Origin: Candidatus Wolfebacteria bacterium | GTDB taxonomy: Bacteria > Patescibacteriota > Minisyncoccia > Phycocordibacterales > NVSU01 | Direction: 5' to 3' | Assembly (NCBI GenBank): GCA_002401345.1 | Contig: NVSU01000007.1 | Location: forward strand, 1 to 38,736 | Length of the DNA stretch: 38,736 bases | Shown: piece by piece, positions 1,753 to 17,851 of the stretch | Layout of the letters: every line of letters starts with the position of its first letter | How positions within the stretch are numbered: position 1 is the stretch's first letter | Made by a program: the position numbers and the translations under genes | Notes under the pieces: model-generated | The model's input: the letters and a program-made list of their open reading frames with translations, nothing else | The model's database searches: none | Told to the model about the DNA's origin: nothing

Positions 1753-2184
1753 GTGAACTATTATTCTCGAATAATCGCATTTAGGAAAAATAGAAAAGGC
1801 TTATATGAAGTACTTCTAGTTAAAGAAAGAGTGGGTGGTAATGTTGTCTTAGGTTTTCCAGGTGGGACTCCTGAGGATACTGATGCGACCAGTCTAGACA
1901 CAGCAAGACGTGAAACTTTTGAAGAAACAGGTCTAATTTTTCCTAAAAAGCCTCTTATGTTTTTTGAGGCAGGAAAACGTGATAAGTTAAATCATTTCTA
2001 CGTTTTTGCTGAAGAAGCGAAGTTGCGAATACCTATATTACCTACATCTGACCCTAAAATTAAAGCAGTATTTTGGTGTAGAGTTGTGGATATTGATCTT
2101 TCTAAGATGAAGAGGTCTCATAGAAAAGCCCTTCGAAAATTCTTAAGAAAATTCTTAAGAAAATTTAAAAGCCCTCAAGTTTGA
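1753..2184 (+). CDS. Nudix hydrolase, GTG start
   Basis: The protein has 143 residues. Residues about 37-61 carry a Nudix box (GG at 37-38, then ARRETFEETG), which binds divalent metal and catalyses hydrolysis of a nucleoside diphosphate linked to another group. The part between the Gly and RRE has two extra residues and lacks the usual first Glu, so substrate class is unclear. GTG is the likely start because an in-frame TAA lies two codons upstream and no ATG is nearby. The C terminus has a near-perfect tandem repeat (KFLRKFLRKF, from duplicated 12-mers). The last codons and the TGA sit inside the terminator hairpin, so those residues are encoded by terminator DNA. Confidence 0.85.
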   Translation: MNYYSRIIAFRKNRKGLYEVLLVKERVGGNVVLGFPGGTPEDTDATSLDTARRETFEETGLIFPKKPLMFFEAGKRDKLNHFYVFAEEAKLRIPILPTSDPKIKAVFWCRVVDIDLSKMKRSHRKALRKFLRKFLRKFKSPQV

Positions 2185-2197
2185 GGGCTTTTTTTAT
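2168..2197 (+). terminator. Intrinsic terminator overlapping the Nudix stop codon
   Basis: AAAGCCCTCAA and TTGAGGGCTTT form an 11-bp stem with a 2-base loop and T-run. The stop codon (2182-2184) lies within the 3-prime arm. Confidence 0.9.
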
Positions 2198-2205
2198 TCC
2201 ATATT

Positions 2206-2340
2206 AACACAGGTTCTCCGACTCGTTTCACTCCCTGGACAGGTAACTAGCCCTAAAGGACTGCGATTTCAAATGATTGAATGCAATCTAAAAAATCGGT
2301 AGTCTAAGCCCTCGGAGCAAATTGTATTTAGTTGGAACTT
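2206..2340. repeat. Structured repeat family 1, copy A
   Basis: CTCCGA (2216-2221) closes with TCGGAG (2312-2317). Inside, GGACT (2258-2262) pairs with AGTCT (2301-2305), CGATTT (2264-2269) with AAATCG (2293-2298), and GATTG (2275-2279) with CAATC (2284-2288). Two more copies lie at 3548 and 5043. It is followed by an ACCTCA/TGAGGT terminator. It may be a structured RNA with its own terminator, or a mobile repeat. Confidence 0.65.
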
Positions 2341-2342
2341 AA

Positions 2343-2364
2343 ACACCTCACATGAGGTTTTTTT
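2343..2364 (+). terminator. Terminator downstream of repeat copy A
   Basis: ACCTCA and TGAGGT flank CA, followed by T7. The Nudix gene already has its own terminator, so this one may end a transcript of the repeat element. Confidence 0.7.
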
Positions 2365-2378
2365 GTTCTGAAAGTGAA

Positions 2379-2407
2379 CCTGCCCGAACGACGTTCAGTC
2401 GGGCAGG
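2379..2407. repeat. Convergent-junction palindrome, copy 1
   Basis: CCTGCCCGA and TCGGGCAGG form a perfect 9-bp inverted repeat around an inner GAACG/CGTTC. Three further copies at 8008, 11476 and 14781 carry TCGGGCGGG instead, which keeps pairing as T-G. In all four places GAGTG(G)AAATAAAAAA and a minus-strand terminator follow. Confidence 0.85.
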
Positions 2408-2419
2408 GAGTGGAAATAA

Positions 2420-2452
2420 AAAAATCCCCCATCGTCCTAGACGTGGGGGATA
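2420..2452 (-). terminator. Terminator of the minus-strand gene at 2478-2768
   Basis: ATCCCCCA (2424-2431) pairs with TGGGGGAT (2444-2451), with an inner CGT/ACG. The A-tract to its left is the U-run on the minus strand. Confidence 0.85.
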
Positions 2453-2477
2453 ATCAAGATTGTTTCTCTCGAAGAGC

Positions 2478-2768
2478 TTATTTGAGGCAACACATGATAC
2501 ATCCTTCAGGGAATGGGCATTTACTGCAATGCCTATGGTATCCACCATCAAACTGACGATATTCTCTTCTGCTATTAGAAATCCTTATCACTCTTTCATT
2601 TTCAGGATCCTCTGGATTTACTACTTGAATATCTTTATCAGTGAGATGAACAGGTGTTGTTAATATTACCTTACCCTCTGTAGTTTTAGCATTATTTAGT
2701 ATTTCAGATTCTTTTGCCTTCTTGTAGATTTTTTCTTGACGATTTACTTCAGAGTTTTTTGTACTCAT
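2478..2768 (-). CDS. Small hypothetical protein with a Cys-rich C terminus
   Basis: The protein has 96 residues and no recognised family. The N-terminal third is Lys/Glu-rich and probably helical. The end (residues about 78-96) has five cysteines in HCSKCPFPEGCIMCCLK, plus GGYHRH just before, which suggests metal binding. It is divergent from the pyroglutamyl-peptidase gene and shares the conserved two-way promoter at 2801-2851. It ends at its own terminator. Confidence 0.65.
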   Translation of the reverse strand: MSTKNSEVNRQEKIYKKAKESEILNNAKTTEGKVILTTPVHLTDKDIQVVNPEDPENERVIRISNSRREYRQFDGGYHRHCSKCPFPEGCIMCCLK

Positions 2769-2800
2769 ATCTTTTTTTTCAACTTTATTTAACTAATTCT

Positions 2801-2851
2801 AATATATCAAAATTCTGGACTCTAGTCAATCAATGAATTTCGTGGTAGAGT
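2801..2851. promoter_or_regulatory. Divergent back-to-back promoter 1
   Basis: Minus strand: TTGACT (from AGTCAA at 2824-2829), 17 bases, TATATT (from AATATA at 2801-2806). Plus strand: TAGTCA (2823-2828), 17 bases, TAGAGT (2846-2851). The two -35 boxes overlap in CTAGTCAAT. Six other divergent pairs in this window use the same arrangement. Confidence 0.75.
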
Positions 2852-2892
2852 GTAGTTAAATAAAAAGATCTTAAACAATTTAATACTCTTGT

Positions 2893-3504
2893 ATGGAAAC
2901 AATTATTCTAACAGGATTTGAACCTTTTGGTTCTTATTCCCATAACCCAACACAACAAAGTACTCTTGATTTCCATGGGAAAATATTTGGTGATCGAAAA
3001 GTTATTGGCTTAGTGCTTCCTTGTACTTATGATGCGTGGGGTCAGCTTGCAAGTCTTATACAAAGAACAAATGCTGATAAGGTAATTAGTACAGGGTTAT
3101 CTTCGTCCGTAAAAGGTATTCGTATTGAGTCGAAGTTTCATAATGTCATGAATGGAAAATACCCTGATGCAAAAGGTTTTGATCCAAAAAATATTCCTGT
3201 CATGGAAGAAGATGCTCCGATTTCAGTTAGATCAAAAGCTGCACATAAAAAACTTTTTGATTTACTTATTAAAAAAGGTATTCCTGCAGAACTTTCAACT
3301 AATGCTGATGCTTTTATATGTAATGCACTAGGATATAAAACTTCTCTAGGTACAAGAAATCACAGATATAATACTCGAAACTTATTTATTCACGTACCAT
3401 GGACAACTGCATATAAAGATAAGGTTTCAATTGAGGAAGGAAAAATATTTCTTGATCAGAATGTTTATTACAAAGGATTAGAATTATTGATTAAAAACAT
3501 TTAA
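2893..3504 (+). CDS. pcp: Pyroglutamyl-peptidase I (peptidase family C15)
   Basis: This cytoplasmic cysteine peptidase removes N-terminal pyroglutamate from peptides. The 203-residue protein opens with ILTGFEPFG, the family signature. The catalytic triad is visible: E79 in RIES, C143 in DAFICNALGY, and H167 in LFIHVPW. Length is close to the usual 200-215. The ATG at 2893 is preceded by a leader of about 35 bases without a Shine-Dalgarno, downstream of the shared divergent promoter. It is a single-gene unit ended by a strong terminator. Confidence 0.92.
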   Translation: METIILTGFEPFGSYSHNPTQQSTLDFHGKIFGDRKVIGLVLPCTYDAWGQLASLIQRTNADKVISTGLSSSVKGIRIESKFHNVMNGKYPDAKGFDPKNIPVMEEDAPISVRSKAAHKKLFDLLIKKGIPAELSTNADAFICNALGYKTSLGTRNHRYNTRNLFIHVPWTTAYKDKVSIEEGKIFLDQNVYYKGLELLIKNI

Positions 3505-3540
3505 AGCCCTATAACCACAAGCTGGTTGTGGGCTTTTTTA
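3503..3540 (+). terminator. Terminator of pcp
   Basis: AAAGCCC pairs with GGGCTTT, with an inner AACCA/TGGTT, followed by a T-run. Confidence 0.88.
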
Positions 3541-3547
3541 TTCATCA

Positions 3548-3683
3548 ATAACACAGGTTCTCCGACTCGTTTCACTCCCTGGACAGATAACTAGCCCTAA
3601 AGGACTGCGTTTTCAAATGATTGAATATAATCTAAAAATCGGGAGTCTAAGTCCTCGGAGCAAATTGCACTTAGTTAGAACAT
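3548..3683. repeat. Structured repeat family 1, copy B
   Basis: This copy follows the pcp terminator. CTCCGA (3560-3565) pairs with TCGGAG (3655-3660). The apical stem is GATTG with TAATC where copy A has GATTG with CAATC, a change that keeps pairing through G-T. This partial compensation suggests selection on structure. Confidence 0.65.
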
Positions 3684-3684
3684 A

Positions 3685-3709
3685 AACATCTCTTAATTGA
3701 GGTGTTTTT
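3685..3709 (+). terminator. Terminator downstream of repeat copy B
   Basis: CATCTC and GAGGTG form the stem around TTAATT, followed by T5. Confidence 0.65.
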
Positions 3710-3788
3710 GTTTGGTGGAGTAAATAAAAAGAGTTTCCAACAACTAGGAAACTTTTCCCCCAGTTGTTTTAGGACTCGATTATATTTC

Positions 3789-3797
3789 TGATATAAT
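3789..3797 (+). promoter_or_regulatory. Extended -10 promoter of the 28-residue gene
   Basis: TGATATAAT ends eight bases before the ATG at 3806, so the transcript should have almost no leader. Confidence 0.6.
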
Positions 3798-3805
3798 ATA
3801 AATAT

Positions 3806-3892
3806 ATGGCAAAAAAAAGTAATAATCAAAGGAAAGAGATAAAAAAACCAAAAAAACCTAAGTCCAAAAAGGATGTAAAGAAGGATAAATAG
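3806..3892 (+). CDS. Tiny Lys-rich protein, 28 residues
   Basis: The peptide begins MAKKSNNQRKEIKKPKKPK and continues SKKDVKKDK. It is extremely basic, with about half lysine and two KKPK repeats. Support for translation: a perfect extended -10 box just upstream, a clean ATG, and a hairpin with a weak T-tract right after the stop. Small Lys-rich proteins of this shape occur in other bacteria. Nucleic-acid or ribosome binding is an inference from charge alone. Confidence 0.6.
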   Translation: MAKKSNNQRKEIKKPKKPKSKKDVKKDK

Positions 3893-3899
3893 TAAGGGA

Positions 3900-3936
3900 G
3901 GTCAGACATTTTAATGATTATCTGACCCTTTATTTC
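3900..3936 (+). terminator. Terminator of the tiny Lys-rich gene
   Basis: GGTCAGA (3900-3906) and TCTGACC (3921-3927) form a 7-bp stem with a 14-base loop, followed by CTTTATTT. Confidence 0.65.
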
Positions 3937-3949
3937 ACTTCCAACAATT

Positions 3950-4040: not shown

Positions 4041-4042
4041 AA

Positions 4043-4068
4043 AAACACCTCTTAAGTGAGGTGTTTTT
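4043..4068. terminator. Terminator between converging units
   Basis: AACACCTC and GAGGTGTT form the stem, followed by T7 on the plus strand. The A-run on the left lets it work leftwards too, for the methyltransferase gene. Confidence 0.75.
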
Positions 4069-5042: not shown

Positions 5043-5158
5043 CAATATAGGTTCCCCGACTCGTTTCACTCCCTAGACAGGTAACTAACCCTAAAGGACT
5101 GCGATTTCAAATGATTGAATGCAATCTAAAAATCGGGAGTCCTACCTGAGGAGCATTT
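5043..5158. repeat. Structured repeat family 1, copy C (hybrid tail)
   Basis: GGACT (5096-5100) pairs perfectly with AGTCC (5137-5141), CGATTT with AAATCG, and GATTG with CAATC. The 3-prime end is CCTACCTGAGGAGCATTT, which belongs to the tail type of the 1565-1682 element rather than to copies A and B. This suggests recombination between repeat families. The copy overlaps the upstream flank of the methyltransferase gene. Confidence 0.6.
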
Positions 5159-5162
5159 TATA

Positions 5163-5187
5163 AAAACACCTGATGTGAGGTGTTTTT
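5163..5187 (+). terminator. Terminator downstream of repeat copy C
   Basis: AACACCT and AGGTGTT form the stem around GATGTG, followed by T5. No plus-strand gene precedes it, so it again follows a repeat element. Confidence 0.6.
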
Positions 5188-5213
5188 GTTTTGAAAGGAA
5201 AGAGTGGAAATAA

Positions 5214-5242
5214 AAAAAGCACCGAGTCACTCGGTGCTTTTT
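5214..5242 (-). terminator. Terminator of the gene at 5258-5710
   Basis: A 12-bp perfect stem, AAAAGCACCGAG with CTCGGTGCTTTT, has a 3-base loop. An A-tract on one side and a T-tract on the other make it usable in both directions. Confidence 0.9.
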
Positions 5243-5710: not shown

Positions 5711-5750
5711 ATTGCTAGTATTTAATTGTTATAGACCGTTAACTGACTTA

Positions 5751-5801
5751 AATATACAGTAACCCTCATCTCTAGTCAATCAAAGAATGTTGTGGTAGAG
5801 T
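5751..5801. promoter_or_regulatory. Divergent back-to-back promoter 2
   Basis: Minus strand: TTGACT-N17-TATATT (AGTCAA 5774-5779, AATATA 5751-5756). Plus strand: TAGTCA (5773-5778)-N17-TAGAGT (5796-5801). Confidence 0.75.
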
Positions 5802-5911
5802 GATGGTAGTTAAATACTAAAGGAAAACATTTAAAATCAAATACTTGATGTATATAAACATTTCAACATGGAAGAGTTTCCATATTTACTTGATAATATT
5901 AAAAAGAATTT

Positions 5912-6466
5912 ATGAAAGATATAATTATAAAAAGATATACATTTAATCGATTAACGAAAAGCATAAAAGAGAAGTTGCGACAAGGGGTTCTGTTAAATTT
6001 TCCAGATGTAGAGGTTTTTAAAACAAGATTCTATTATCAGATACCACCCAATTTTATGTTTATAGCATGGCATAAAGGCGGAATTGTGGGTCAACGATAT
6101 TTAACTACTAAAGTAAGGCCGATTGATGGAAAGAAATATAAGGTCGCAGGCATAGGTATTACTATAAGCAAAGAATTTCAAGGTAAGGGATTAGGAAAAG
6201 AGCTAACAAAGGAAGTTCTCAGGTTTATCCAAAATAGTGATTATGATTTCGTTATGGCTACTACTTCAAATAAGATTGCGATACATGTTCTAAATAAATT
6301 TGGATTTACAAAGCTGAAAAGAAAAATAACATATAAAGATATTAAAACACGAAAAATCATCACAGAAGATGAAACAGTAATGGTAAAAGATTTTCAAGAC
6401 AACAGATTAATAAAAGAAATTGAAAAATCCAAGAAACCAATTTATATGGGAGTTGGTGTCTGGTAA
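5912..6466 (+). CDS. GNAT-family N-acetyltransferase
   Basis: The protein has 184 residues. GIGITISKEFQGKGLGKELT (residues about 81-100) is GNAT motif A, whose QGKGLG loop binds the pyrophosphate of acetyl-CoA. ATTSNKIAIHVLNKFGF follows as motif B, with the typical N-K-x-G-F end. The acceptor is unknown. A 15-codon frame starts at 5868 (MEEFPYLLDN) and its TGA overlaps this ATG as ATGA, so translation may be coupled. Another short frame starts at 5848, ten or so bases after an ACATTTAAAA leader motif. The unit has its own terminator. Confidence 0.85.
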   Translation: MKDIIIKRYTFNRLTKSIKEKLRQGVLLNFPDVEVFKTRFYYQIPPNFMFIAWHKGGIVGQRYLTTKVRPIDGKKYKVAGIGITISKEFQGKGLGKELTKEVLRFIQNSDYDFVMATTSNKIAIHVLNKFGFTKLKRKITYKDIKTRKIITEDETVMVKDFQDNRLIKEIEKSKKPIYMGVGVW

Positions 6467-6475
6467 TTATAGAAA

Positions 6476-6507
6476 AAAGCCTAATCAGTAATGGTTGGGC
6501 TTTTTTT
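6476..6507 (+). terminator. Terminator of the GNAT gene
   Basis: AAAGCCTAATCA pairs with TGGTTGGGCTTT over 12 bp including two G-U pairs, followed by T7. The next promoter begins right after the T-tract. Confidence 0.88.
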
Positions 6508-6515
6508 ATTTTCTT

Positions 6516-6538
6516 AAACTTCTTGGTATACTTTTAGT
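6516..6538 (+). promoter_or_regulatory. Leaderless extended -10 promoter (tandem junction, no palindrome)
   Basis: AAACTTCTTGGTATACT contains the extended -10 box TGGTATACT (6524-6532). Six bases separate it from the ATG at 6539, so transcription should start at the A of the start codon. Confidence 0.75.
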
Positions 6539-7000
6539 ATGAATGAAAAACCACCAAATATTATGAAAACTCTCGTTAGGAGACTTACAACGAAGGGAAT
6601 CGCCTTCTTCGGCACTCTCACGGTGTTCCTGCTGGTTCTTCATGCCACGGACGAGATTGCGCGCGGCGCGGCCGCCCAGCAATACGCGGGCTTTGGAGCC
6701 GGAGAGGCCGTCCTGGTCTTTATCCTACTGATGGTCCTTTACCTCTTCGGTATCGGATGGGCCTGGAAGCAACGTAGGTTGGGCTACTGGATCGTCCTCG
6801 TGGGGTCCGCCATCGCCTTTTTGCGGACGTTCTCAGTGATCCTCGGCTTGGGCAATCCGGATCTGGAGGCCCTCTTTGCTGCCTACACCAGCGAGGCCGT
6901 AGGCGTATTCTTCGTCTTTGTCTACCTGGCCATTGCTCTGACGAGCCTGATGGCTCTCTTCCTCTCCATCTACGCACTGGTTGTCCGAAAGCGGTCATAA
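6539..7000 (+). CDS. GC-rich multi-pass membrane protein, probably horizontally acquired
   Basis: The protein has 153 residues with about four membrane helices (near 20-38, 52-70, 78-98 and 120-147) and a basic end (VVRKRS). No family is recognised. From about base 6600 to 7045 the DNA is strikingly GC-rich: 6661-6720 is about 73% G+C and 6841-6900 is 65%, while flanking genes are about one third. The first 19 codons (MNEKPPNIMKTLVRRLTTK) are AT-rich like the host. The foreign body thus appears joined to a resident promoter and start. Third positions in the body are strongly G/C, unlike every neighbour. The reading frame is intact. Confidence 0.75.
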   Translation: MNEKPPNIMKTLVRRLTTKGIAFFGTLTVFLLVLHATDEIARGAAAQQYAGFGAGEAVLVFILLMVLYLFGIGWAWKQRRLGYWIVLVGSAIAFLRTFSVILGLGNPDLEALFAAYTSEAVGVFFVFVYLAIALTSLMALFLSIYALVVRKRS

Positions 7001-7520: not shown

Positions 7521-7527
7521 AGGCTAT

Positions 7528-7536
7528 AGTATATCA
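7528..7536 (-). promoter_or_regulatory. Extended -10 promoter, near-leaderless, minus strand
   Basis: On the minus strand TGATATACT ends seven bases before the ATG at 7520. Confidence 0.65.
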
Positions 7537-7692
7537 TTTCGAGTAATAATATTAATCCTTCTTTGATTCTTGACCAATCTAAAGCTCTAAACTTCTCTAA
7601 TATATAGTTCTGAACGTATCCTGCCTGCGGAGCATTTTTTGCGATACTTATCTAATAGATCGGATTGAGAGTTAGAGCTTACTATTAAATTT

Positions 7693-7707
7693 TGGTATAA
7701 TTTCGAT
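7693..7707 (+). promoter_or_regulatory. Leaderless extended -10 promoter
   Basis: TGGTATAAT (7693-7701) is followed by six bases and the ATG at 7708. Confidence 0.75.
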
Positions 7708-7967: not shown

Positions 7968-7998
7968 AAAAAACACCTCATCACTGAGGTGTTTTTTT
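7968..7998 (+). terminator. Terminator of the gene at 7708-7962
   Basis: AAACACCTCA and TGAGGTGTTT flank TCAC, followed by T7. Confidence 0.9.
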
Positions 7999-8007
7999 GA
8001 AAGGGAA

Positions 8008-8036
8008 CCTGCCCGAACGACGTTCAGTCGGGCGGG
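8008..8036. repeat. Convergent-junction palindrome, copy 2
   Basis: CCTGCCCGA (8008-8016) pairs with TCGGGCGGG (8028-8036), with GAACG/CGTTC inside. It lies between two facing terminators. Confidence 0.85.
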
Positions 8037-8044
8037 GAGTGGAA

Positions 8045-8080
8045 ATAAAAAAAGCCCAGAGGTCATAAATGACTTGGGCT
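8045..8080 (-). terminator. Terminator of the gene at 8101-8628
   Basis: AGCCCA (8053-8058) pairs with TGGGCT (8075-8080), with GTCAT/ATGAC inside. The A-run on the left is the minus-strand U-run. Confidence 0.8.
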
Positions 8081-8628: not shown

Positions 8629-8654
8629 TTTAAAGAGCTTATTTGTTCTCCATT

Positions 8655-8700
8655 AGCGTAGCACACAATACTTGACAAGTCAAGTAATATATGATATTGT
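8655..8700. promoter_or_regulatory. Divergent back-to-back promoter 3 (palindromic -35 pair)
   Basis: ACTTGAC and GTCAAGT form an inverted repeat around AA. Plus strand: TTGACA (8672-8677)-N17-TATTGT (8695-8700). Minus strand: TTGACT (AGTCAA 8678-8683)-N17-TACGCT (8655-8660). The sequence differs from the CTAGTCAAT type but the geometry is the same. Confidence 0.7.
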
Positions 8701-8738
8701 GGTTATGAAAAGTTCTTTTAACATTTAAAACCAATATT

Positions 8739-9026
8739 ATGTCAAAGCAGAAAAGGAGACATCCATTATCAATTATAGAAGGTGTTGATCTAGATTTCAA
8801 AGCCTCGATAATTTATGATGAGGTATATGCAAAGTATGCAGATGATATTCAAAAGGAAGTAAGAAAACGTATCAGACAGGAACTCGGTGATTTATTACCA
8901 ATTGGAACAGTTATAACCTTTCCTAAGGGAGATACAACTGTTAATAGTAGTGATTATACGACAGTAGGTGATTTTCGTTATCTTATATTTCGAAAGCCAT
9001 GTATAAACATCAAAACTCCTGCATAA
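8739..9026 (+). CDS. Small hypothetical protein, 95 residues
   Basis: No family is recognised. The N terminus is basic (MSKQKRRH). A helical middle (YADDIQKEVRKRIRQELGDL) is followed by a short beta region (IGTVITFPKGDTTV). The ATG is eight bases after ACATTTAAAA, a leader motif shared with other genes, and there is no Shine-Dalgarno. Confidence 0.65.
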   Translation: MSKQKRRHPLSIIEGVDLDFKASIIYDEVYAKYADDIQKEVRKRIRQELGDLLPIGTVITFPKGDTTVNSSDYTTVGDFRYLIFRKPCINIKTPA

Positions 9027-9044: not shown

Positions 9045-9076
9045 AAGCCCAACCTTTATAGGTTGGGTTTTTTTTA
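9045..9076 (+). terminator. Terminator of the gene at 8739-9026
   Basis: AAGCCCAACCT and AGGTTGGGTT flank TTAT, followed by T8; the next promoter begins right after it. Confidence 0.88.
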
Positions 9077-9083
9077 TTTCCTC

Positions 9084-9106
9084 AAACTTCTTGATATACT
9101 ACAAGA
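9084..9106 (+). promoter_or_regulatory. Leaderless extended -10 promoter (tandem junction, no palindrome)
   Basis: AAACTTCTTGATATACT contains TGATATACT (9092-9100). Six bases separate it from the ATG at 9107. Confidence 0.75.
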
Positions 9107-9658
9107 ATGAGTAGTTCAGACAAATTTCCTGAAGAGGAACAAATAATTGAAAAACCAGATATTTTGTATCATGGATCGATAATGAAGGATTTAAAAGTCA
9201 TAGAGCCAAAAGATCATAACTATAGGGATCCACACGAAGGAGCTCTTATTTTTGCAGCACCTGATTTGGCGTTGGCAACTATTTTCATAACAAAACGTCA
9301 TCACAGTGGGTATTTTAATGACGTCCCGTTTATAGTCATTGATGAACACAGAGAATCTTTTATAAAAAAAGACAAAGGAGGGGCAGTATACGTTTTGTCG
9401 TCGGAAAATTTTAAGTGTGATTCTAAAAAGGGAATGCAACACAAAGAATGGACATGTGATATTAAAGTTAAACCGAAAGAGAAAATCGATTACCCTTCAA
9501 CACTCGATGCTATGTTAGAAAATGGAGTACAGGTATATTTTGTTGATAATAAAACATATGAGCAAGTAAAGTCTTCAGATGACGGTGGGTTAGCAATACT
9601 TAAGGATCTGAAATCAGAAAATGAAGAAAGACAGTTAAACTATAAAACATTACCGTAA
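9107..9658 (+). CDS. Possible ADP-ribosyltransferase-like (ART-fold) protein
   Basis: The protein has 183 residues. ILYHGS (residues 19-24), then EPKDHN and GALIFAAPDLALATIF (45-60), resemble the first half of the ART / RNA 2'-phosphotransferase fold, where Y-H-G is followed by a V-F-A-T/S-x-D-x-x-x-A segment lining the NAD pocket. A catalytic Glu near the end cannot be assigned with certainty. Cysteines occur only at positions about 104 and 117. It could instead be an uncharacterised family with a similar opening. It is a leaderless single-gene unit with a strong terminator. Confidence 0.6.
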   Translation: MSSSDKFPEEEQIIEKPDILYHGSIMKDLKVIEPKDHNYRDPHEGALIFAAPDLALATIFITKRHHSGYFNDVPFIVIDEHRESFIKKDKGGAVYVLSSENFKCDSKKGMQHKEWTCDIKVKPKEKIDYPSTLDAMLENGVQVYFVDNKTYEQVKSSDDGGLAILKDLKSENEERQLNYKTLP

Positions 9659-9709: not shown

Positions 9710-9740
9710 CCTCGTCCCTTTCAGGGACGAGGCATTTTTT
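9710..9740 (+). terminator. Terminator of the gene at 9107-9658
   Basis: CCTCGTCCCT (9710-9719) and AGGGACGAGG (9723-9732) form a 10-bp perfect stem, followed by CATTTTTT. Confidence 0.92.
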
Positions 9741-9755
9741 ATTTCCTCAAACTTA

Positions 9756-9791
9756 TTGCCTACCTGCCGGTAGACAGGGTATACTTTTTGT
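9756..9791 (+). promoter_or_regulatory. Leaderless promoter with palindromic 18-bp spacer, copy 1
   Basis: TTGCCT (9756-9761), 18 bases, TATACT (9780-9785), six bases, ATG (9792). A 20-nt imperfect palindrome occupies 9759-9778. Sister promoters at 6516 and 9084 lack it but share the flanks AAACTTNTTG and TATACT. Confidence 0.75.
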
Positions 9792-10211
9792 ATGAGGCAA
9801 ATCTTATCAAAAGTCGGAGATGAATATACATGTCCAGTGGCGATTATAAATCGTGATGGAAAAATATTACTGGGTTTAAGGAATTATACTGCCGATAAAT
9901 GGAAAGATATTTCTGTATGGACATGTCCTGGAGGAAGATGTGATCCAGGAGAAACTATTGAAGAAACATTAAGAAGGGAAGTATTGGAAGAAACAGGAAT
10001 AAATGATTTAAATATTATTGAATTTCTTGGGGAGGTCCCTGGGGCTAAAGAAGGAGATAATGTCTACTTATTTCATTGCTCTACAGAACAAGAATGCAGA
10101 CTTATGGAACCTGAAAAATTCTCAGAGTGGAAATGGATTAAACCAGAAGAGGCTCCCGATAATTATGTAAATAAAGATTCTTTGGAACTTATCTTGAAAT
10201 CAAATAAATAA
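9792..10211 (+). CDS. Nudix hydrolase with a complete Nudix box
   Basis: The protein has 139 residues. The box is perfect: G48-x5-E54-x7-R62-E63-V-L-E66-E67-T-G69-I70. It coordinates Mg and activates water for hydrolysis of NDP-X substrates. VWTCPGGRCDPGE and EWKWIKPEEAP are typical of small MutT/NUDT-like enzymes that clean up nucleotides, but the exact substrate is not readable. The ATG lies six bases after TATACT, so the mRNA is expected to be leaderless. It is not similar to the Nudix at 1753 outside the box. Confidence 0.9.
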   Translation: MRQILSKVGDEYTCPVAIINRDGKILLGLRNYTADKWKDISVWTCPGGRCDPGETIEETLRREVLEETGINDLNIIEFLGEVPGAKEGDNVYLFHCSTEQECRLMEPEKFSEWKWIKPEEAPDNYVNKDSLELILKSNK

Positions 10212-10212
10212 T

Positions 10213-10243
10213 AAAAACACCTCATTACTGAGGTGTTTTTTTT
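10213..10243 (+). terminator. Terminator of the second Nudix gene
   Basis: AAACACCTCA and TGAGGTGTTT flank TTAC, followed by T8. It is almost identical to the terminator at 7968. Confidence 0.9.
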
Positions 10244-10261
10244 GAAAGGGAGGAGTGGAAA

Positions 10262-10354
10262 TAAAAAAGCCCCCAATCCGTCCATCTATTTTGTCTGCTA
10301 TTCTTGTTGATAGCATTAGGACTGCTATAGTTACAGCCGGAGTTATTGGGGGCT
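10262..10354 (-). ncRNA. Candidate small structured RNA, about 93 nt
   Basis: On the minus strand an 11-bp stem, AAGCCCCCAAT with ATTGGGGGCTT, closes about 67 bases that include a TGCTAT/ATAGCA hairpin. It is followed by a U-run (A-tract at plus 10263-10268). A TAATAT (plus 10361-10366) lies six bases before the first stem base, the same spacing as between -10 and ATG in the leaderless genes here. It stands apart from the next minus-strand gene, which ends at its own terminator (10394-10422). A peptide frame exists inside but lacks a well placed start. It could also be an unusually long-looped terminator. Confidence 0.4.
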
Positions 10355-10393
10355 TATGTCATATTACCACATACCTTAAGATAAAGAATGGAA

Positions 10394-10422
10394 ATAAAAA
10401 AAGCCCCCACAGTGGAGGGCTT
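10394..10422 (-). terminator. Terminator of the gene at 10465-11001
   Basis: AAGCCC (10401-10406) pairs with GGGCTT, with CCAC/TGG inside. The A-tract to the left is the U-run. Confidence 0.8.
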
Positions 10423-10464
10423 CATATTTAATGCTGGATGACTCATGTTTAGAGTTGAAACTAA

Positions 10465-11001: not shown

Positions 11002-11034
11002 TGGTATGCAGTTTTTATTGAACTAACTATGTTC

Positions 11035-11085
11035 AATATAACAAAACACGGAACCCTAGTCAATCGATAAATTTTGTGGTAGTGT
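11035..11085. promoter_or_regulatory. Divergent back-to-back promoter 4
   Basis: Minus strand: TTGACT-N17-TATATT (AGTCAA 11058-11063, AATATA 11035-11040). Plus strand: TAGTCA (11057-11062)-N17-TAGTGT (11080-11085). Confidence 0.75.
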
Positions 11086-11133
11086 GAGGGGAGAAAGTAA
11101 TCTTAAGTTCCAACTCAAATAATAAAGAATAAG

Positions 11134-11423: not shown

Positions 11424-11475
11424 TTTGCCGCTTAGAATACAGGTTCCAACTAAGTGTTTTTGTTTTGAAAGTGAA

Positions 11476-11504
11476 CCTGCCCGAACGACGTTCAGTCGGG
11501 CGGG
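11476..11504. repeat. Convergent-junction palindrome, copy 3
   Basis: CCTGCCCGA (11476-11484) pairs with TCGGGCGGG (11496-11504). It is preceded by a fragment (ACAGGTTC then CAACTAAGTG) that could be a deletion scar of repeat family 1. Confidence 0.82.
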
Positions 11505-11512
11505 GAGTAGAA

Positions 11513-11542
11513 ATAAAAAAAGCCCTCATGGTGGAGGGCTTT
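11513..11542 (-). terminator. Terminator of the gene at 11550-11912
   Basis: AAAGCCCTC and GAGGGCTTT flank ATGGTG. The 40 bases 11510-11549 are identical to 12601-12640, which end a different, unrelated gene. Confidence 0.88.
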
Positions 11543-11549
11543 ATGATTC

Positions 11550-11912
11550 CTAATCTATAGAAATCTTTTTTACGACATCAATATGCATGTGCCTTAAAAG
11601 ATTTTTAGCAATTAAAGCTGTATCTTTTCCATGGGTACCATCAGCAGCACTTCTTAATAAAACCATCATACTTAATTTGTTATATCCAATTGCTTCTGGA
11701 ATACCAAGATTTAATTTATGTACATCATTTCCAACGAAGACATGTCCACTTTCCCATATTTTTTTGACAATGGAACGCAAAGCTTCATTCTGGGGATTTA
11801 TTTTCCCTTCATTGGCTTCATCAAGAGTTGCTATCAAAAGCTTTTCATATGCATACTCAAGAAATGGTTTCGCTTCTCTTTCGGTATTAATCGTTATAAC
11901 TATTTGTCCCAT
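11550..11912 (-). CDS. Hypothetical protein, 120 residues
   Basis: No family is recognised. It is an alpha/beta soluble protein opening MGQIVITINTEREAKPFLEY, with a segment GHVFVGNDVHKLNLGIPEAI near the middle and a helical end. The leader has GAACATTTAAAAA eight bases before the ATG (plus 11921-11933) and no Shine-Dalgarno. Confidence 0.7.
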   Translation of the reverse strand: MGQIVITINTEREAKPFLEYAYEKLLIATLDEANEGKINPQNEALRSIVKKIWESGHVFVGNDVHKLNLGIPEAIGYNKLSMMVLLRSAADGTHGKDTALIAKNLLRHMHIDVVKKISID

Positions 11913-11952
11913 CTTTAAGGTTTTTAAATGTTCAAACTAATTTACTAACTTC

Positions 11953-12003
11953 AATATACATAAACAGAGACATCTAGTCAATCAGTAAGTTTTGTTGTAG
12001 TGT
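11953..12003. promoter_or_regulatory. Divergent back-to-back promoter 5
   Basis: Minus strand: TTGACT-N17-TATATT (AGTCAA 11976-11981, AATATA 11953-11958). Plus strand: TAGTCA (11975-11980)-N17-TAGTGT (11998-12003). Confidence 0.75.
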
Positions 12004-12046
12004 GAGAGAAGTTAAAGAGAACATAGAACATTTAAAATTTGATATT

Positions 12047-12487
12047 ATGAAAGTAAAAGTGTGGGTAACTCAAATCACAGAAGGTTTAGAGTACAATGGG
12101 TGTATTGAACTCAACGATATAAAGTTTGACTACAATGTTCTTTTCGGTGTCCATATAGATAAGTTGGATGATCAAGAAGATCCTGATGGAATAGAAGAAC
12201 TTAAAGCACAAACTAAAAAGCTTTTTCAATTTTCTCTTAAAAGAGAAAATGAGGAAATAGAAATCGATGATACATTGTTCGGTTTTTTGTTGGGGACAGT
12301 AGGAGTGCAAGTTGTTGAATTTTACAACAACCCACAAGCACAATCGTCTAATCAAGGAGTAATAGGAGAATTAGTTCGTGGTACGTCTCCGCTCCCTGGA
12401 CAAATGACAATTGGATGTAATGTTACATATGACATACCTGAGGAAGATATTCCTGGTGGACTAATGACAAATCAGACCATTCAATAA
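12047..12487 (+). CDS. Hypothetical protein, 146 residues
   Basis: No family is recognised. It is acidic, with beta-rich N- and C-terminal parts (MKVKVWVTQITEGLEY and GQMTIGCNVTYDIPEEDIPG). The ATG at 12047 is chosen over an in-frame GTG at 12002 because that GTG lies in the plus-strand -10 region. The ATG is nine bases after ACATTTAAAA, the shared leader motif. Confidence 0.7.
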   Translation: MKVKVWVTQITEGLEYNGCIELNDIKFDYNVLFGVHIDKLDDQEDPDGIEELKAQTKKLFQFSLKRENEEIEIDDTLFGFLLGTVGVQVVEFYNNPQAQSSNQGVIGELVRGTSPLPGQMTIGCNVTYDIPEEDIPGGLMTNQTIQ

Positions 12488-12540: not shown

Positions 12541-12603
12541 ATTTCTGCATACTATACGTTTTGCAATCTTTTATTATTCTTTTTTTTAAAAGGCGGGATG
12601 GAA

Positions 12604-12633
12604 ATAAAAAAAGCCCTCATGGTGGAGGGCTTT
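12604..12633 (-). terminator. Terminator of the gene at 12647-12889 (duplicate)
   Basis: AAAGCCCTC and GAGGGCTTT flank ATGGTG. It is part of the 40-base block identical to 11510-11549. Confidence 0.88.
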
Positions 12634-12646
12634 ATGATTCTTATTT

Positions 12647-12889: not shown

Positions 12890-12926
12890 TTTGTGCGGGA
12901 TTAAATGGTTTAACTATAATTTCTGA

Positions 12927-12977
12927 CTTAAATGTACCCAGAGAACTCTAGTCAATCTATGAATTTTGTGGTAGTGT
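12927..12977. promoter_or_regulatory. Divergent back-to-back promoter 6
   Basis: Plus strand: TAGTCA (12949-12954)-N17-TAGTGT (12972-12977). Minus strand: TTGACT (AGTCAA 12950-12955)-N17-TTTAAG, a weak -10 compared with the other copies. Confidence 0.65.
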
Positions 12978-13006
12978 GAGGATAGAAATGTTAAAAATCC
13001 ATAGTT

Positions 13007-13375: not shown

Positions 13376-13407
13376 CCCGTAACTATATTTAGTTACGGGC
13401 TTTTTTT
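13376..13407 (+). terminator. Terminator of the gene at 13007-13363
   Basis: CCCGTAACT (13376-13384) and AGTTACGGG (13391-13399) form a 9-bp perfect stem, followed by T7. Confidence 0.92.
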
Positions 13408-13424
13408 ATTTCCGCTAAACTTCA

Positions 13425-13433
13425 TGGTATATT
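13425..13433 (+). promoter_or_regulatory. Extended -10 promoter (tandem junction, leadered variant)
   Basis: TGGTATATT follows AAACTTCA in the tandem-junction context, with no palindrome. Unlike the others, the ATG is about 43 bases downstream. Confidence 0.55.
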
Positions 13434-13476
13434 ATATATAGATAATTTCGATCATTAATTCTAAAATCACATAGCC

Positions 13477-13691: not shown

Positions 13692-13719
13692 AAAAAGATA
13701 GGAATATTCCTGTCTTTTT
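13692..13719 (+). terminator. Terminator of the gene at 13477-13686
   Basis: AAAAAGA/TCTTTTT and AGGAA/TTCCT form the stem with a T-G mismatch, followed by a T-rich tract. Confidence 0.8.
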
Positions 13720-13735
13720 CTTTTCCCTAAACTTA

Positions 13736-13771
13736 TTGCCTGCCTACCGGTAAGTAGGCTATACTTTTTAT
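13736..13771 (+). promoter_or_regulatory. Leaderless promoter with palindromic 18-bp spacer, copy 2
   Basis: TTGCCT (13736-13741)-N18-TATACT (13760-13765), six bases, ATG (13772). The palindrome is at 13739-13758. Confidence 0.75.
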
Positions 13772-14740
13772 ATGGATTTATATGAACAAATTATTGAAGA
13801 GTCGAAAAAGATTACAGAAAAAATCATGTCCTTACACAAGGAAGATCTTTATGCGTATTCAATAATTTTTTCAGTACCCACTAACCACCCTAGATCTAGG
13901 GAGCTTTCAGAATATAGATTTATGGTTACCTCAATCGATACATATGAGTTCGATGAAAATTCAATTTTTCTAGTAGATGAAGATCTAAAAAATATAGTTT
14001 TTTTGAAGGAGTTTCTTGATGGAAAAGAGATATATTTTTTGAAATCAAGCGAATTTGAAACTAAAACAAATACGTTTGCTGATGCATTTATTAGTAAAAA
14101 TTTATCTGACAAAACTAAGAAAACTGTTGTAAGTATAGGTGGGGGTTTAATTCAAAATGTAGTTGGATATATTGCCGAACACACAAAATCGGATCTTATT
14201 TATATTCCAACTACACCACTATCGATGTCAGATAGTTCAACGGGAGGAAAGATCAGACTTAATTCTATTAAAGATGGTAAATTTTTAAAGCATTCTTATA
14301 AAAGTTTCTTTGAACCTAATGCTATTGTAGTTGATCCTCGATTCCTAGACACATTTCCTGATAATGTGCTGCATGTAAATATAGCTGAAATTATTAAACA
14401 TGGATTTTATCAATCAGAAGATCTTTTTGATTATTTACTGTCGGAGAAATTTAACATTAACGATAAGACGGAGCTGCTTAGGGCTATTTTATGGACCGTT
14501 GAACTAAAACGTATTGCATGGAACATTGACTCACATGAAATGCAAAGTGCATTTAATAAAATAATCAGAGCTGGTCATGATATTTCAGATAGACTTGAAG
14601 AAGAATCTGAATTGAGTATCTCTCATGGTGAAGCTCTACTTAGAGGGTTGTACATACAGGCAACGAAAGAAAATCACCCACATCTCAAAAAAATGCGATC
14701 ACTGTATGATAAATTAGGATTAAGTAAATATTATTTATAA
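13772..14740 (+). CDS. AroB-family sugar-phosphate cyclase (3-dehydroquinate synthase-like)
   Basis: The 322-residue protein matches the AroB fold. It has SIGGGLIQNVVGY (121-133), IPTTPLSMSDSSTGGK (145-160), AEIIKHG (205-211), AGHDIS (267-272) and SHGEA (284-288). The three zinc ligands (E206, H269, H285) and Lys160 and Lys209 of the active site are present. 3-Dehydroquinate synthase uses NAD and Zn to close DAHP; related enzymes close sedoheptulose 7-phosphate or glucose 6-phosphate. No other shikimate gene is nearby, and N replaces the usual D after GGG-x-x-x, so a different cyclase role is possible. The transcript is predicted leaderless. Confidence 0.83.
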   Translation: MDLYEQIIEESKKITEKIMSLHKEDLYAYSIIFSVPTNHPRSRELSEYRFMVTSIDTYEFDENSIFLVDEDLKNIVFLKEFLDGKEIYFLKSSEFETKTNTFADAFISKNLSDKTKKTVVSIGGGLIQNVVGYIAEHTKSDLIYIPTTPLSMSDSSTGGKIRLNSIKDGKFLKHSYKSFFEPNAIVVDPRFLDTFPDNVLHVNIAEIIKHGFYQSEDLFDYLLSEKFNINDKTELLRAILWTVELKRIAWNIDSHEMQSAFNKIIRAGHDISDRLEEESELSISHGEALLRGLYIQATKENHPHLKKMRSLYDKLGLSKYYL

Positions 14741-14780
14741 TACGTTCTCTTACTCATCTTAATTGTATTTTGATTGTGAA

Positions 14781-14809
14781 CCTGCCCGAACGACGTTCAG
14801 TCGGGCGGG
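14781..14809. repeat. Convergent-junction palindrome, copy 4
   Basis: CCTGCCCGA (14781-14789) pairs with TCGGGCGGG (14801-14809). No separate plus-strand terminator precedes it here, unlike copies 2 and 3. Confidence 0.85.
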
Positions 14810-14817
14810 GAGTGTAA

Positions 14818-14848
14818 ATAAAAAAGCCCCGTCTATAGACGGGGCTTT
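14818..14848. terminator. Two-way terminator between AroB-like gene and the gene at 14866
   Basis: AAAGCCCCGTC and GACGGGGCTTT form an 11-bp stem around TATA. The A-tract on the left serves the minus-strand gene. Confidence 0.88.
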
Positions 14849-15423: not shown

Positions 15424-15455
15424 TTATTCAATTTTATTGGTTCATATCTGATCTC

Positions 15456-15506
15456 AATATACAGGACTCCGATACACTAGTCAATGCGCAAATTTTGTGG
15501 TAGTGT
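15456..15506. promoter_or_regulatory. Divergent back-to-back promoter 7
   Basis: Minus strand: TTGACT-N17-TATATT (AGTCAA 15479-15484, AATATA 15456-15461). Plus strand: TAGTCA (15478-15483)-N17-TAGTGT (15501-15506). Confidence 0.75.
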
Positions 15507-15544
15507 GAGGTCAGATAAATTAAGTTCACTAAAAACAAAAAGAA

Positions 15545-16033
15545 ATGCAAGAAACAATATTTAGTTCTACGAAAAGTTTTCCTCAGGACGAACACATTGA
15601 AAAAACATGTAAGCCTGGAAAAGGTAAAAAAACATGCCGATATCTAACGATGACTAGTAATGGATGGAGTTGTGCCAAATATAACTCAATTAAAGATACT
15701 ATTGATGACAGGGTATCTAAGGGCGAGATGAAGGCTGTTGGTGATAATTGCGATGGCATATTGGGGCAAATTATAGAAAACCAAGAACTTTTACAAGGCA
15801 AACGAATAGAGTATAAAGAAAGAATGCCTAGCTTTGAAACCAGTGGTGTGCTCGAAAAGGTTGAAATTAAAGATGGTGAATTGTGTTTCATTGCTGACTG
15901 GGAAGGTGAGACGGAGGGAACAATCTCCATCACTGTAGACAACCTTGATGTGAACGTCCTACTCGACAGAATAACCTTTGGTGTTCTTGGTTTGGATCAT
16001 ATTGCTGGAAGGACCACAATTTTCCTGAAATGA
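15545..16033 (+). CDS. Hypothetical protein with an N-terminal Cys cluster
   Basis: The protein has 162 residues. Four Cys in the first half (TCKPGKGKKTCRYL, GWSCAKY, DNCDG) could bind a metal. The second half is a beta-rich acidic domain (VEIKDGELCFIADWEGETEG). No family is recognised. Confidence 0.7.
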   Translation: MQETIFSSTKSFPQDEHIEKTCKPGKGKKTCRYLTMTSNGWSCAKYNSIKDTIDDRVSKGEMKAVGDNCDGILGQIIENQELLQGKRIEYKERMPSFETSGVLEKVEIKDGELCFIADWEGETEGTISITVDNLDVNVLLDRITFGVLGLDHIAGRTTIFLK

Positions 16034-16061
16034 GTCTTTTGTTCCCATGAGTATTTTCATG

Positions 16062-16090
16062 AAGCCCCTTCAATTGAAGGGGCTTTTTTT
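16062..16090 (+). terminator. Terminator of the gene at 15545-16033
   Basis: AAGCCCCTTCAA and TTGAAGGGGCTT form a near-continuous palindrome, followed by T7. Confidence 0.92.
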
Positions 16091-16105
16091 ATTTTCTAAA
16101 ACTTA

Positions 16106-16141
16106 TTACCTGTCTGCCGATGGACGGGGTATACTTAAGTA
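16106..16141 (+). promoter_or_regulatory. Leaderless promoter with palindromic 18-bp spacer, copy 3
   Basis: TTACCT (16106-16111)-N18-TATACT (16130-16135), six bases, ATG (16142). The palindrome at 16109-16128 differs in sequence from copies 1 and 2, but the 20-nt length is kept. Confidence 0.72.
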
Positions 16142-17851
16142 ATGAAGAAGGTAATAATATGTGGAGCTGGTATAGGTGGACTAACCGTAGCTCACGAATT
16201 GTCAAAGAGAAATTTCGATGTGACTGTATACGAGAGAAATGATATTGTGGGTGGGCTCGCTCGGAGTATGTATCATACCGATCCCCAGATGTCCTATAAA
16301 TATCCGGTGGAATATTCGTGGAGGATTTATGGCGCGGAGTATAAGAATCTACTGAGGATACTTAATGAAATACCGTTACGGGAAGATCAAAAGAAGACAG
16401 TATTGAGTAATTTGGTGACAGTATTTACATTTATTTTTGCCAGATTTGATAAAAAAGAAGTCATTTTTTCTAAAAATAATAACTTGGGGGAGATCACAAG
16501 GGATTTTCAGAAAGGAGACACTCGAAAGATACTCAACAAGATTTTGTATTGCATGACGATGTCAACCGCAAGAATGGATTCGCTCGACGGTTTCACATGG
16601 AAGGAATATTGCACAGATCTTTCACCTGAGGCAAATAAATACCTGGTCAGACTTATGGCACCGTTACTGGGTATGGATCCTACCTATATGAGCTTTCCCG
16701 TTATCGCTCGAATGGTCAAGATGTTACTCGGTGGAGTGTGGGGCGGAAGCAGTGCATTATATGTAATGTGCAAACCGACTAACGACGGGTGGTTTGATGA
16801 GTGGCTTGAATACTTGCAAAATAGCAGTGGTGTGAGCATTAAAATAAATAGTGAAATAAAAGATTTTAACATGCGAGATGGTAAGATCCACAGTATTACA
16901 GTTCAAGATAAAGTCACCAAGGAAGAAAAAGTAGAAGATGCGGATTATTTCGTGTGTGCTATGTCAGTTGAAGCGATTGCGGATATCGCATCAAAAAATA
17001 AAGAATTGTTAAAAGTGCCGGCATTACGGAACACTATTAACTTAGCCAAGCGTTGTAGACAGATACAATTATCTATCGGGATTTTCTTGGATCAGGGCAT
17101 TGTATATCCGACCAAAGAGAAGCTTGTATTGGCCCTGCCTGATACCCCATGGGGGATTACTATTGAGCCGGAAGATGATATATGGTGTAAGGCATATTGC
17201 ACCGATACGCGTGTCAAAACCTTTTTAGCTGTTGCAGTTTGTCAGACCGATAGCAAGGGGATTGTTCACGACAAACCGTTTATTAAGTGCACTGAAAGCG
17301 AAATACAAGATGAGGTGTGGGCTCAAATATGCCGATCATATCACATGTCCAGCATCAAAACCAAGGATGGGGGAACCATAGACACCGCGAAGATAATCCT
17401 ATTTTATATTTGGGATAGTTATAAATTTGATAAAGAAAAAGGCCTCATGGATACTTGGGAGCCTAAATTTAGTAACAATATAGATTCACTGTCTTATCAG
17501 CCAAGTACGACTACTGAAGTCCCCAATTTATTATTTGCTACGGCGTATACCAAAACAGACAGATATATTTATTGTATGGAGGCAGCGGCAGAAGCTGGCA
17601 CAAGGGCTGCAAATGAAATAATTACACAGAGCAATCAGGCAACCAATCGTAGTGAATCAGTATCTAAGATCTATCCGTATAACGCATCTTTGCCGGTTTT
17701 TTACCCATTGGTTTTAATAGACAATATTTTATATAAATTACGACTCCCTCATTTAAGTAGACTTACATTCAACAACAGTATTGGGTTAGTGGCTGTGTAT
17801 GTAATTGTAATACTGGGCTTAATTACACTGTTGTTATTGAAAATATTTTAA
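16142..17851 (+). CDS. FAD-dependent amine oxidase / phytoene desaturase-like oxidoreductase with a C-terminal membrane helix
   Basis: The protein has 569 residues. KKVIICGAGIGGLTVAHELS is a textbook dinucleotide-binding motif (G-x-G-x-x-G), followed by E at about 31 (VYERN) and GGLAR (38-42), which contact FAD. The middle (LMAPLLGMDPTYMSFPVIAR) and the late NLLFATAYTKTDRYIYCMEAA resemble the substrate and flavin-capping parts of amine-oxidase-like desaturases. Residues about 543-567 form a membrane helix followed by a short K-I-F end. Exact substrate unknown; a lipid or isoprenoid is an inference from the membrane anchor. Its G+C is visibly higher than that of its neighbours. Confidence 0.8.
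   Translation: MKKVIICGAGIGGLTVAHELSKRNFDVTVYERNDIVGGLARSMYHTDPQMSYKYPVEYSWRIYGAEYKNLLRILNEIPLREDQKKTVLSNLVTVFTFIFARFDKKEVIFSKNNNLGEITRDFQKGDTRKILNKILYCMTMSTARMDSLDGFTWKEYCTDLSPEANKYLVRLMAPLLGMDPTYMSFPVIARMVKMLLGGVWGGSSALYVMCKPTNDGWFDEWLEYLQNSSGVSIKINSEIKDFNMRDGKIHSITVQDKVTKEEKVEDADYFVCAMSVEAIADIASKNKELLKVPALRNTINLAKRCRQIQLSIGIFLDQGIVYPTKEKLVLALPDTPWGITIEPEDDIWCKAYCTDTRVKTFLAVAVCQTDSKGIVHDKPFIKCTESEIQDEVWAQICRSYHMSSIKTKDGGTIDTAKIILFYIWDSYKFDKEKGLMDTWEPKFSNNIDSLSYQPSTTTEVPNLLFATAYTKTDRYIYCMEAAAEAGTRAANEIITQSNQATNRSESVSKIYPYNASLPVFYPLVLIDNILYKLRLPHLSRLTFNNSIGLVAVYVIVILGLITLLLLKIF

Follow-up and report, generated by a model that had tools for sequence, protein, structure and literature searches.

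Phage morons are genes that come singly, each with a promoter and a terminator of its own, and in the boundary sequences of mosaic phages homology is limited to the gene borders. Minimal mobile elements have no mobility genes and move by transformation and by recombination in conserved flanking sequences. In Neisseria these elements are described as gene cassettes that are exchanged horizontally between genomes (Saunders and Snyder 2002, as cited in PMC2649163). The pdif (xrs) modules of Acinetobacter plasmids display adaptive genes as modules between repeated sites in a mosaic arrangement; pdif sites are Xer sites and are mostly present as inverted pairs (PMC11705084).

The DNA analyzed here (the window) is a 38,736 nt stretch of contig C7 of Candidatus Wolfebacteria, from a draft, metagenome-type genome assembly that is 92% complete and has breaks near the locus. 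An array of genes and repeated intergenic joints is found at C7:2.2–17.9 kb and at the end of a second contig, C3:52–57 kb. The preliminary description had placed it at positions 2160–16145; the array is larger, i.e. it continues up to ~17.9 kb and then on C3, and remnants are present on C8, C9 and C10. A search of the rest of the genome shows the junction types to be otherwise nearly absent. The order is a convergent joint, a minus-strand gene, a divergent joint, a plus-strand gene and, optionally, a tandem joint with a further plus-strand gene. Joint polarity is constant throughout with no flips, a point not made previously. Neighboring genes switch strand in 21 of 32 pairs in the array, compared with 260 of 938 pairs elsewhere in the genome. 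The three junction types first described are present far above chance, with amendments, and they are not equivalent. The locus may be a lineage-specific island of single accessory genes where the joints double as homology and genes are swapped with kin DNA by RecA-type recombination, an explanation we hold with a confidence somewhat short of even.

The array is similar to minimal mobile elements in that the units have no mobility gene; a Pfam scan of 28 window proteins (541 to 21754) shows no recombinase or transposase, in agreement with the initial statement that the region has no integrase. Exchange of the array genes is something that we infer. Minimal mobile elements are solitary loci flanked by conserved genes, whereas the array has short repeated regulatory joints and approximately 20 units in a row. 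The array differs from phage morons in that its genes are of a chromosomal accessory type: only one of ten proteins scanned has a PHROG match, the other nine being without a phage-family match, and the joint patterns are absent from IMG/VR viral contigs except for one chance match inside a gene. These two measures do not point to a prophage or phage location, and a viral origin of the joints is rejected since viral contigs have no real match. Integron arrays, too, line up small accessory genes that are unrelated to one another, each in a unit of its own; the intergenic sequence is repeated and the polarity is constant. However, no integron integrase is recognized with the array (no IntI is beside it, and the genome, which is 92% complete, encodes just two PF00589 proteins, on C15 and C19) and an attC-like site recurring at every joint is not evident. 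In addition, the array genes are in both orientations and the units have their own promoters and terminators. With respect to attC-like folding, the only long folded repeat is a 117-bp element found three times, and dyads in the joints are significant in the variable terminator hairpins only. The pdif modules resemble the array in that genes are bounded as modules by repeated sites, but flanking 28-bp XerC/XerD-like sites (11-6-11 dyad) are not conserved in the joints, and the joints are not inverted.

The genes had been considered unrelated, and array proteins of C7 and C3 indeed display no mutual resemblance. On the plus strand are NUDIX hydrolase genes at 1753..2184 (PF00293, 1.1e-13) and 9792..10211 (PF00293, 3.4e-22), a pyroglutamyl-peptidase-like gene at 2893..3504 (PF01470, 1.2e-24; present in 3 of the order's 246 other genomes), a GNAT acetyltransferase gene at 5912..6466 (PF00583), a 3-dehydroquinate-synthase-like gene at 13772..14740 (PF01761/PF24621) and a flavin amine oxidoreductase-like gene at 16142..17851 (PF01593), which is the last plus-strand gene of the array. 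The 3-dehydroquinate-synthase-like gene has one homologue, in genome G049 (41%, nearly the whole protein), in another gene context. Array genes are patchy across the order while the flanking gene is common: in the set of 247 genomes, four array genes are found in 11, 0, 2 and 3 other genomes, compared with 70 for the flanking gene. In codon statistics, most array genes are like the rest of the genome. An RNA family search gave nothing at its gathering score.

The core of the convergent joints, GGAAATAAAAAA, is found six times on the plus strand within the C7 array, with one-base variants GTAGAAATAAAAAA at 11.5 kb and GTGTAAATAAAAAA at 14.8 kb. The palindrome CCTGCCCGAACGACGTTCAGTCGGGCGGG is present in four convergent joints (2341..2435, 7971..8057, 11454..11552 and 14768..14837, plus strand) and at no other place in the genome. 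The four joints are alike over 58–88 bp at 91–92%, palindrome included, while the adjacent hairpins and genes differ; the joint at 2341..2435 matches 7971-8057 (88 bp, 92%), 11454-11532 (79 bp, 91%) and 14768-14825 (58 bp, 91%). Homology blocks also define plus-strand joints without the palindrome at 10211..10275 and 12580..12643, and a convergent-type joint without it is at 5160..5224 (+; 58 bp at 90% to 10211-10268). The joint at 10211..10275 is followed by a second one at 10388-10425 with no convincing gene in between, and the minus-side terminator of the 11454..11552 joint is common to 12595-12643 (50 bp, 94%). Two facing terminators, as first described for convergent pairs, are found in some joints, but those at 11.45 and 14.76 kb have no clear plus-strand hairpin, the plus-side terminator of 14768..14837 not being evident. 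Similarity declines with distance in the convergent type (Mantel r -0.32, p 0.034) and not in the other two types. The sharing of 58–88 bp at ~92%, with a palindrome restricted to these four joints, indicates copying of non-coding convergent joints between different genes. A role of the AAATAAAAAA/ATTTCC core as a DNA-uptake signal is rejected: GGAAATAAAAAA occurs 20 times in 897 kb, 9 of these in the C7 array, which is far too few.

The divergent joint has six copies in C7 (at 2822, 5772, 11056, 11974, 12948 and 15477) and two in C3, and all eight contain the CTAGTCAAT core in the same orientation. When each copy is removed from the model before its own scoring, the joints score 44–62 bits. 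The C7 copies, on the plus strand, are at 2784..2875 (45 bits), 5739..5816 (55.5 bits), 11023..11098 (53 bits), 11941..12016 (44 bits), 12917..12993 (51 bits) and 15442..15522 (49 bits). The best match outside of the array, C8:9193 (34–41 bits), is likewise between divergent genes, and the next ones are at or below 21 bits. Two divergent gene pairs inside the region, at 7521-7707 and 8629-8738, do not have the motif. Identity among the joints is 91–94% in the promoter-like blocks, 0.50 (above chance) in the spacers, and 0.33–0.35 in both 5′ UTRs compared with 0.30 by chance. Because the promoter elements are conserved and the 5′ UTRs are near chance, selection matters in these joints, and selection alone could be enough to yield the conservation. 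The divergent junction thus resembles a constrained promoter and is weak evidence for exchange.

Six tandem joints are present on the plus strand. Those at 6498..6541 (a terminator T-tract, ATTTTC and AAACTTCTTGGTATACT; 38.7 bits with model R2), 9066..9109 (42 bits, R2) and 13398..13440 (32.8 bits, R2) lack the 20-nt palindrome that is located between TTG and TATACT in the other three (9735..9795, 13715..13774 and 16081..16144). The 117-bp repeat, missed in the preliminary description, is on the plus strand in three copies of 97% identity, and the genome has no further long copy. Copy 1 (2207..2324) follows the NUDIX gene's terminator and precedes the next one, copy 2 is at 3551..3667, and copy 3 (5049..5141) is truncated and is upstream of a minus-strand gene, thus its left context is unlike that of the others. 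On C8, a kinase-gene segment is found between 108-bp direct repeats (one mismatch, one gap) consisting of the joint A-tract, the terminator and the gene 3′ end, as would be expected from the footprint of a recent duplicative insertion. This duplicated joint and gene end, together with the convergent joints that have the common palindrome, provides good evidence for exchange. The initial interpretation of the junctions is partly supported, with a correction for the divergent type.

When the intergenic sequences of the genome are all compared with one another, strong similarity (a score of at least 50) is found in 27% of array divergent and 25% of array convergent pairs, compared with 0.1–0.2% elsewhere, and in no array pair of flipped orientation. 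Median pair scores, divergent and convergent, are 38 and 29.5 in the array versus 18 and 17 elsewhere. Junction similarity is therefore above that of the genome's own promoters and terminators. Two relatives from the order, G002 (complete, one contig) and G049 (three contigs), show no such array by the same analysis. Together with the within-genome comparison, this rejects a generic promoter and terminator reading for the convergent joints and weakens it for the divergent ones. The 49 homology blocks all end at gene edges and none extends more than 30 bp into a gene, the 30-bp case being the NUDIX frame that runs up to its terminator. Several joints are just 30–60 bp long at 80–90% identity, which is short for efficient RecA recombination.

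The main rival to the gene-swapping island is a shared regulon with limited copying of junctions. Here the genes would be co-regulated accessory genes, with junctions kept alike because selection favors a single design of promoter and terminator, with gene conversion contributing; the genes would have entered by ordinary means, with no swapping at the joints. The promoter-like blocks of the divergent joints, so much more alike than their 5′ UTRs, and weaker single copies of the same promoter at C1 and C16 agree with this, but the spacers are above chance, and the most similar joints of all are the convergent ones with their palindrome, located between terminators with no evident regulatory need. 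Selection also does not explain their fixed polarity, and we regard the regulon as rather unlikely. Local segmental duplication, with joints copied along with genes in tandem and gene duplicates later lost or replaced, requires no repeated exchange. Copies near each other often have the highest similarity (the 117-bp trio at 2.2-5.1 kb, the joints at 11.5/12.6 kb and both C3 divergent joints), and C1:29-33 kb has true tandem duplicates of a gene and its junction. However, joints of 91–92% identity flank proteins without detectable similarity, thus gene replacement is needed under duplication as well; this explanation appears improbable.

An integron-like or Xer/pdif-like site-specific system of cassettes, whose recombinase is outside of the assembly or unrecognized, is suggested by the polarized array of units with one NUDIX, GNAT or hypothetical gene each, which resemble integron cassettes, and by the assembly being incomplete and broken near the array. 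As RNA, the 117-bp element folds better than its shuffled versions (z -2.4), but as single-stranded DNA it is unexceptional (z -0.96), and it is found only three times. As the two tyrosine recombinases, on other contigs, are not integron-integrase-like by eye, a conserved 11-6-11 dyad is lacking, and integrons do not usually have genes in both orientations, such a system is very improbable. Least probable, and scarcely credible, is the joining of unrelated fragments by the assembler at short repeats. The draft has several contig ends near the array, with breaks close to IS30-like elements and masked stretches; nevertheless, the joints are imperfect and shorter than typical reads, the unit order is regular with constant polarity, and codon statistics of most array genes match the genome.

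Gene contexts of array-gene homologues in seven genomes (G016, G142, G144, G006, G110, G242 and G049) show no such array, the joint models give only weak single matches outside of their own genome among 297 genomes of the order, and a GTDB r220 pattern scan gave a single match in each of three contigs, which belong to unrelated groups; these are regarded as chance. A literature search within one library gave no description of such arrays in Patescibacteria. Since these joints are in no genome or contig searched, we can only infer that genes moved by recombination in the joints and that uptake of kin DNA supplied them.

Patescibacteria are thought to acquire genes through DNA uptake. Competence for uptake has been reported in the group (PMC12455944), and the genome has ComEC and DprA genes. 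In the gene-swapping island, a unit would be one gene with its own terminator, and units would be linked by the repeated, polarized non-coding joints, i.e. divergent promoter, convergent inter-terminator and tandem terminator-promoter. DNA of a kin cell with another gene between two joints would enter, probably by the ComEC/DprA route, and would be recombined within the joints by the RecA pathway, with a gene replaced or added. As a result joints would be copied and genes swapped, and a newcomer would be transcribed and terminated on arrival. It is a more doubtful proposition that this small streamlined genome has a cassette array that works without an integrase and whose three polarized, standardized regulatory joints serve as both transcription borders and docking homology, with single genes swappable between kin. 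If true, no integrase is needed for an integron-like array to arise, and standard joints, as insulators of each gene and as a source of homology, would explain in a simple way how single genes are placed in tight genomes without disturbing neighbors. A G+C-rich hypothetical single gene at 6539..7000 (+), located between a tandem joint and an array-type terminator, counts in favor of the gene-swapping island: the order's 246 other genomes contain no homologue of it, and its GC of 0.556 and GC3 of 0.69 compare with genome gene means of 0.368 and 0.29.

The draft genome (897 kb in 24 contigs, 92% complete) was analysed with all contigs jointly, and the window takes up the first 38,736 of the 51,380 bases of contig C7. 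Genomes of the same order are likewise small (0.4–1.4 Mb), and such sizes fit Patescibacteria. On C7 an array of mostly single-gene units linked by repeated intergenic joints spans approximately 2.2–17.9 kb. The unit order is fixed, i.e. convergent joint, minus gene, divergent joint, plus gene, with an optional tandem joint and further plus gene. Joints and unit order identical in kind are found at C3:52.1–57.0 kb, and remnants are present on C8 (8.7–13.4 kb), C9 and the ends of C10. The stereotyped junctions of the preliminary description are real and extend further than the 2160–16145 it gave. IS30-like elements and masked stretches lie close to contig ends near the array, and the pieces on C3, C7, C8, C9 and C10 may therefore be one locus split by assembly. 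Of the 32 gene borders in the array, 21 are strand switches; elsewhere in the genome the figure is 260 of 938.

After gene calling, all same-type pairs of 50–500 bp intergenic regions were locally aligned. Divergent array pairs have a median score of 38 (18 for others) and 27% score at least 50 (0.09% of others). For convergent array pairs the median is 29.5 (17 for others), with 25% and 0.2%, respectively, at 50 or above. The effect is weaker in tandem joints (median 22 vs 16), and stronger, unrelated tandem-intergenic families that resemble inserted repeat elements occur elsewhere in the genome. By this comparison junction likeness is above the ordinary intergenic level, strongly for the divergent and convergent types and less for the tandem. 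Flipping one partner leaves every array pair below 50, thus joint polarity is constant. Leave-one-out profiles of the divergent joint recover each omitted copy at 44–62 bits; the next-best site is C8:9193 (34–41 bits) and the remainder are at 21 bits or less. The all-pairs comparison showed no such array in two genomes of the order, G002 (complete) and G049 (three contigs).

Four convergent joints have 58–88 bp in common at 91–92% identity and contain a palindrome with no other occurrence in the genome, while the hairpins and genes outside them differ. Other convergent joints have the terminator on the minus side in common, as far as the stop codon (11503–11552 with 12595–12643, and C3:53804–53848 with C3:55391–55434). 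These likenesses are read as copied: they appear not to be explained by regulatory need, and joint copying explains them.

In the divergent joints the overlapping -35 block displays 94% pairwise identity and AATTTTGTGGTAGTGTG 91%, compared with 50% in the spacer and 33–35% in the flanking 5′ UTRs (chance 30%). Judged from these identities, the profile is that of a promoter under constraint that also keeps some sign of shared ancestry, and promoter constraint in addition to copying is the best reading of this joint. A serious rival to exchange at the joints is a common regulon in which junctions were copied to a limited extent; the constrained promoter speaks for it and the convergent joints against it. 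Weaker single copies of the promoter are found on C1 and C16. Many plus genes have a recurrent 5′ leader motif, approximately AACATTTAAAA, between the divergent promoter and the start codon (for example at 12027–12049, 5850–5870 and 8725–8741). A smaller island at C16:70.5–76.6 kb has a related divergent promoter and its own tandem-joint variant (terminator, ACTTCTTGC, palindrome, TATACT).

The comparison of array junctions took in as much as 200 bp of every adjoining gene. Among 49 homology blocks the deepest gene entry is 30 bp, at a NUDIX stop codon, and the rest enter 16 bp or less. At C8 10397–13357 a histidine kinase gene segment lies between copies of a 108-bp direct repeat, which differ by one mismatch and one gap. 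The repeat consists of an A-tract, a terminator and the 3′ end of a minus gene, and the left copy is truncated. A recent duplicative insertion at a joint would be expected to leave such a footprint, which is the nearest approach to a caught event. Over 427 aa the kinase shares 66% identity with the one at 21762–23948.

The joined genes are unrelated, as originally described: BLASTP among the C7 and C3 array proteins shows no mutual resemblance. Recognisable products are two NUDIX hydrolases, a pyroglutamyl peptidase, a GNAT acetyltransferase, a dehydroquinate-synthase-like protein and a flavin oxidoreductase; for a methyltransferase and an NMN-transporter-like protein the matches fall below curated cut-offs, and most others show no recognised family. 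The gene at 6539–7000, which has a tandem joint on one side and a terminator of the array type on the other, has a GC of 0.556 and GC3 of 0.69 (genome means 0.368 and 0.29). In 247 genomes searched, this genome left out of the counts, homologues of four array genes are found in 11, 0, 2 and 3, those in 11 being mostly partial 26–35% matches with one near-full-length at 41%. The genomes holding homologues mostly differ between array genes, and no homologue examined lies inside such an array. A flanking glutamate-dehydrogenase-type gene has homologues in 70. The gene at 17893–19041 encodes a coiled-coil-like repeat protein with three 63-bp in-frame repeats (18310–18511). The first ~110 residues of 541–1308 (+) match the N-terminal portions of endonuclease effectors in PADLOC, SAVED/HNH among them, and also unknown phage families; the gene lies just outside the array and may have a role in defence.

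Pattern searches for the joints in 30 relatives, GTDB r220 and IMG/VR, and joint models run on 297 genomes of the order, found no relative carrying them, although very near records of this genome may lie outside what these searches covered; thus the exchange claim rests on within-genome evidence. The best reading is that the region is an accessory-gene island specific to this lineage, in which joints have been copied from one unrelated gene to another, most probably through homologous recombination. The proposed absence of an integrase at the array holds: the two tyrosine recombinases of this 92% complete genome are on C15 and C19, away from the array, and neither reads as an integron integrase. 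A conserved 11-6-11 dyad was not found in the joints. ComEC is encoded on C1 and DprA on C8. Adjoining comEC, C1:29.6–33.3 kb displays tandem duplicates of a gene with its junction, one broken by an IS30-like transposase.

A 117-bp element is present in three copies (2207–2324, 3551–3667 and 5049–5141), two behind plus genes and one upstream of a minus gene. As RNA it folds better than shuffles (z -2.4), and it may be either a small RNA or a palindromic mobile element. Dispersed intergenic repeats with ATCCCGT...ACGGGAT-type inverted ends, probably MITE-like, are found on C6, C11, C12, C16, C17 and C3. At C10 1–700 small units follow one another on the minus strand; they have a terminator and promoter and no evident ORF, and are possibly small RNA genes.
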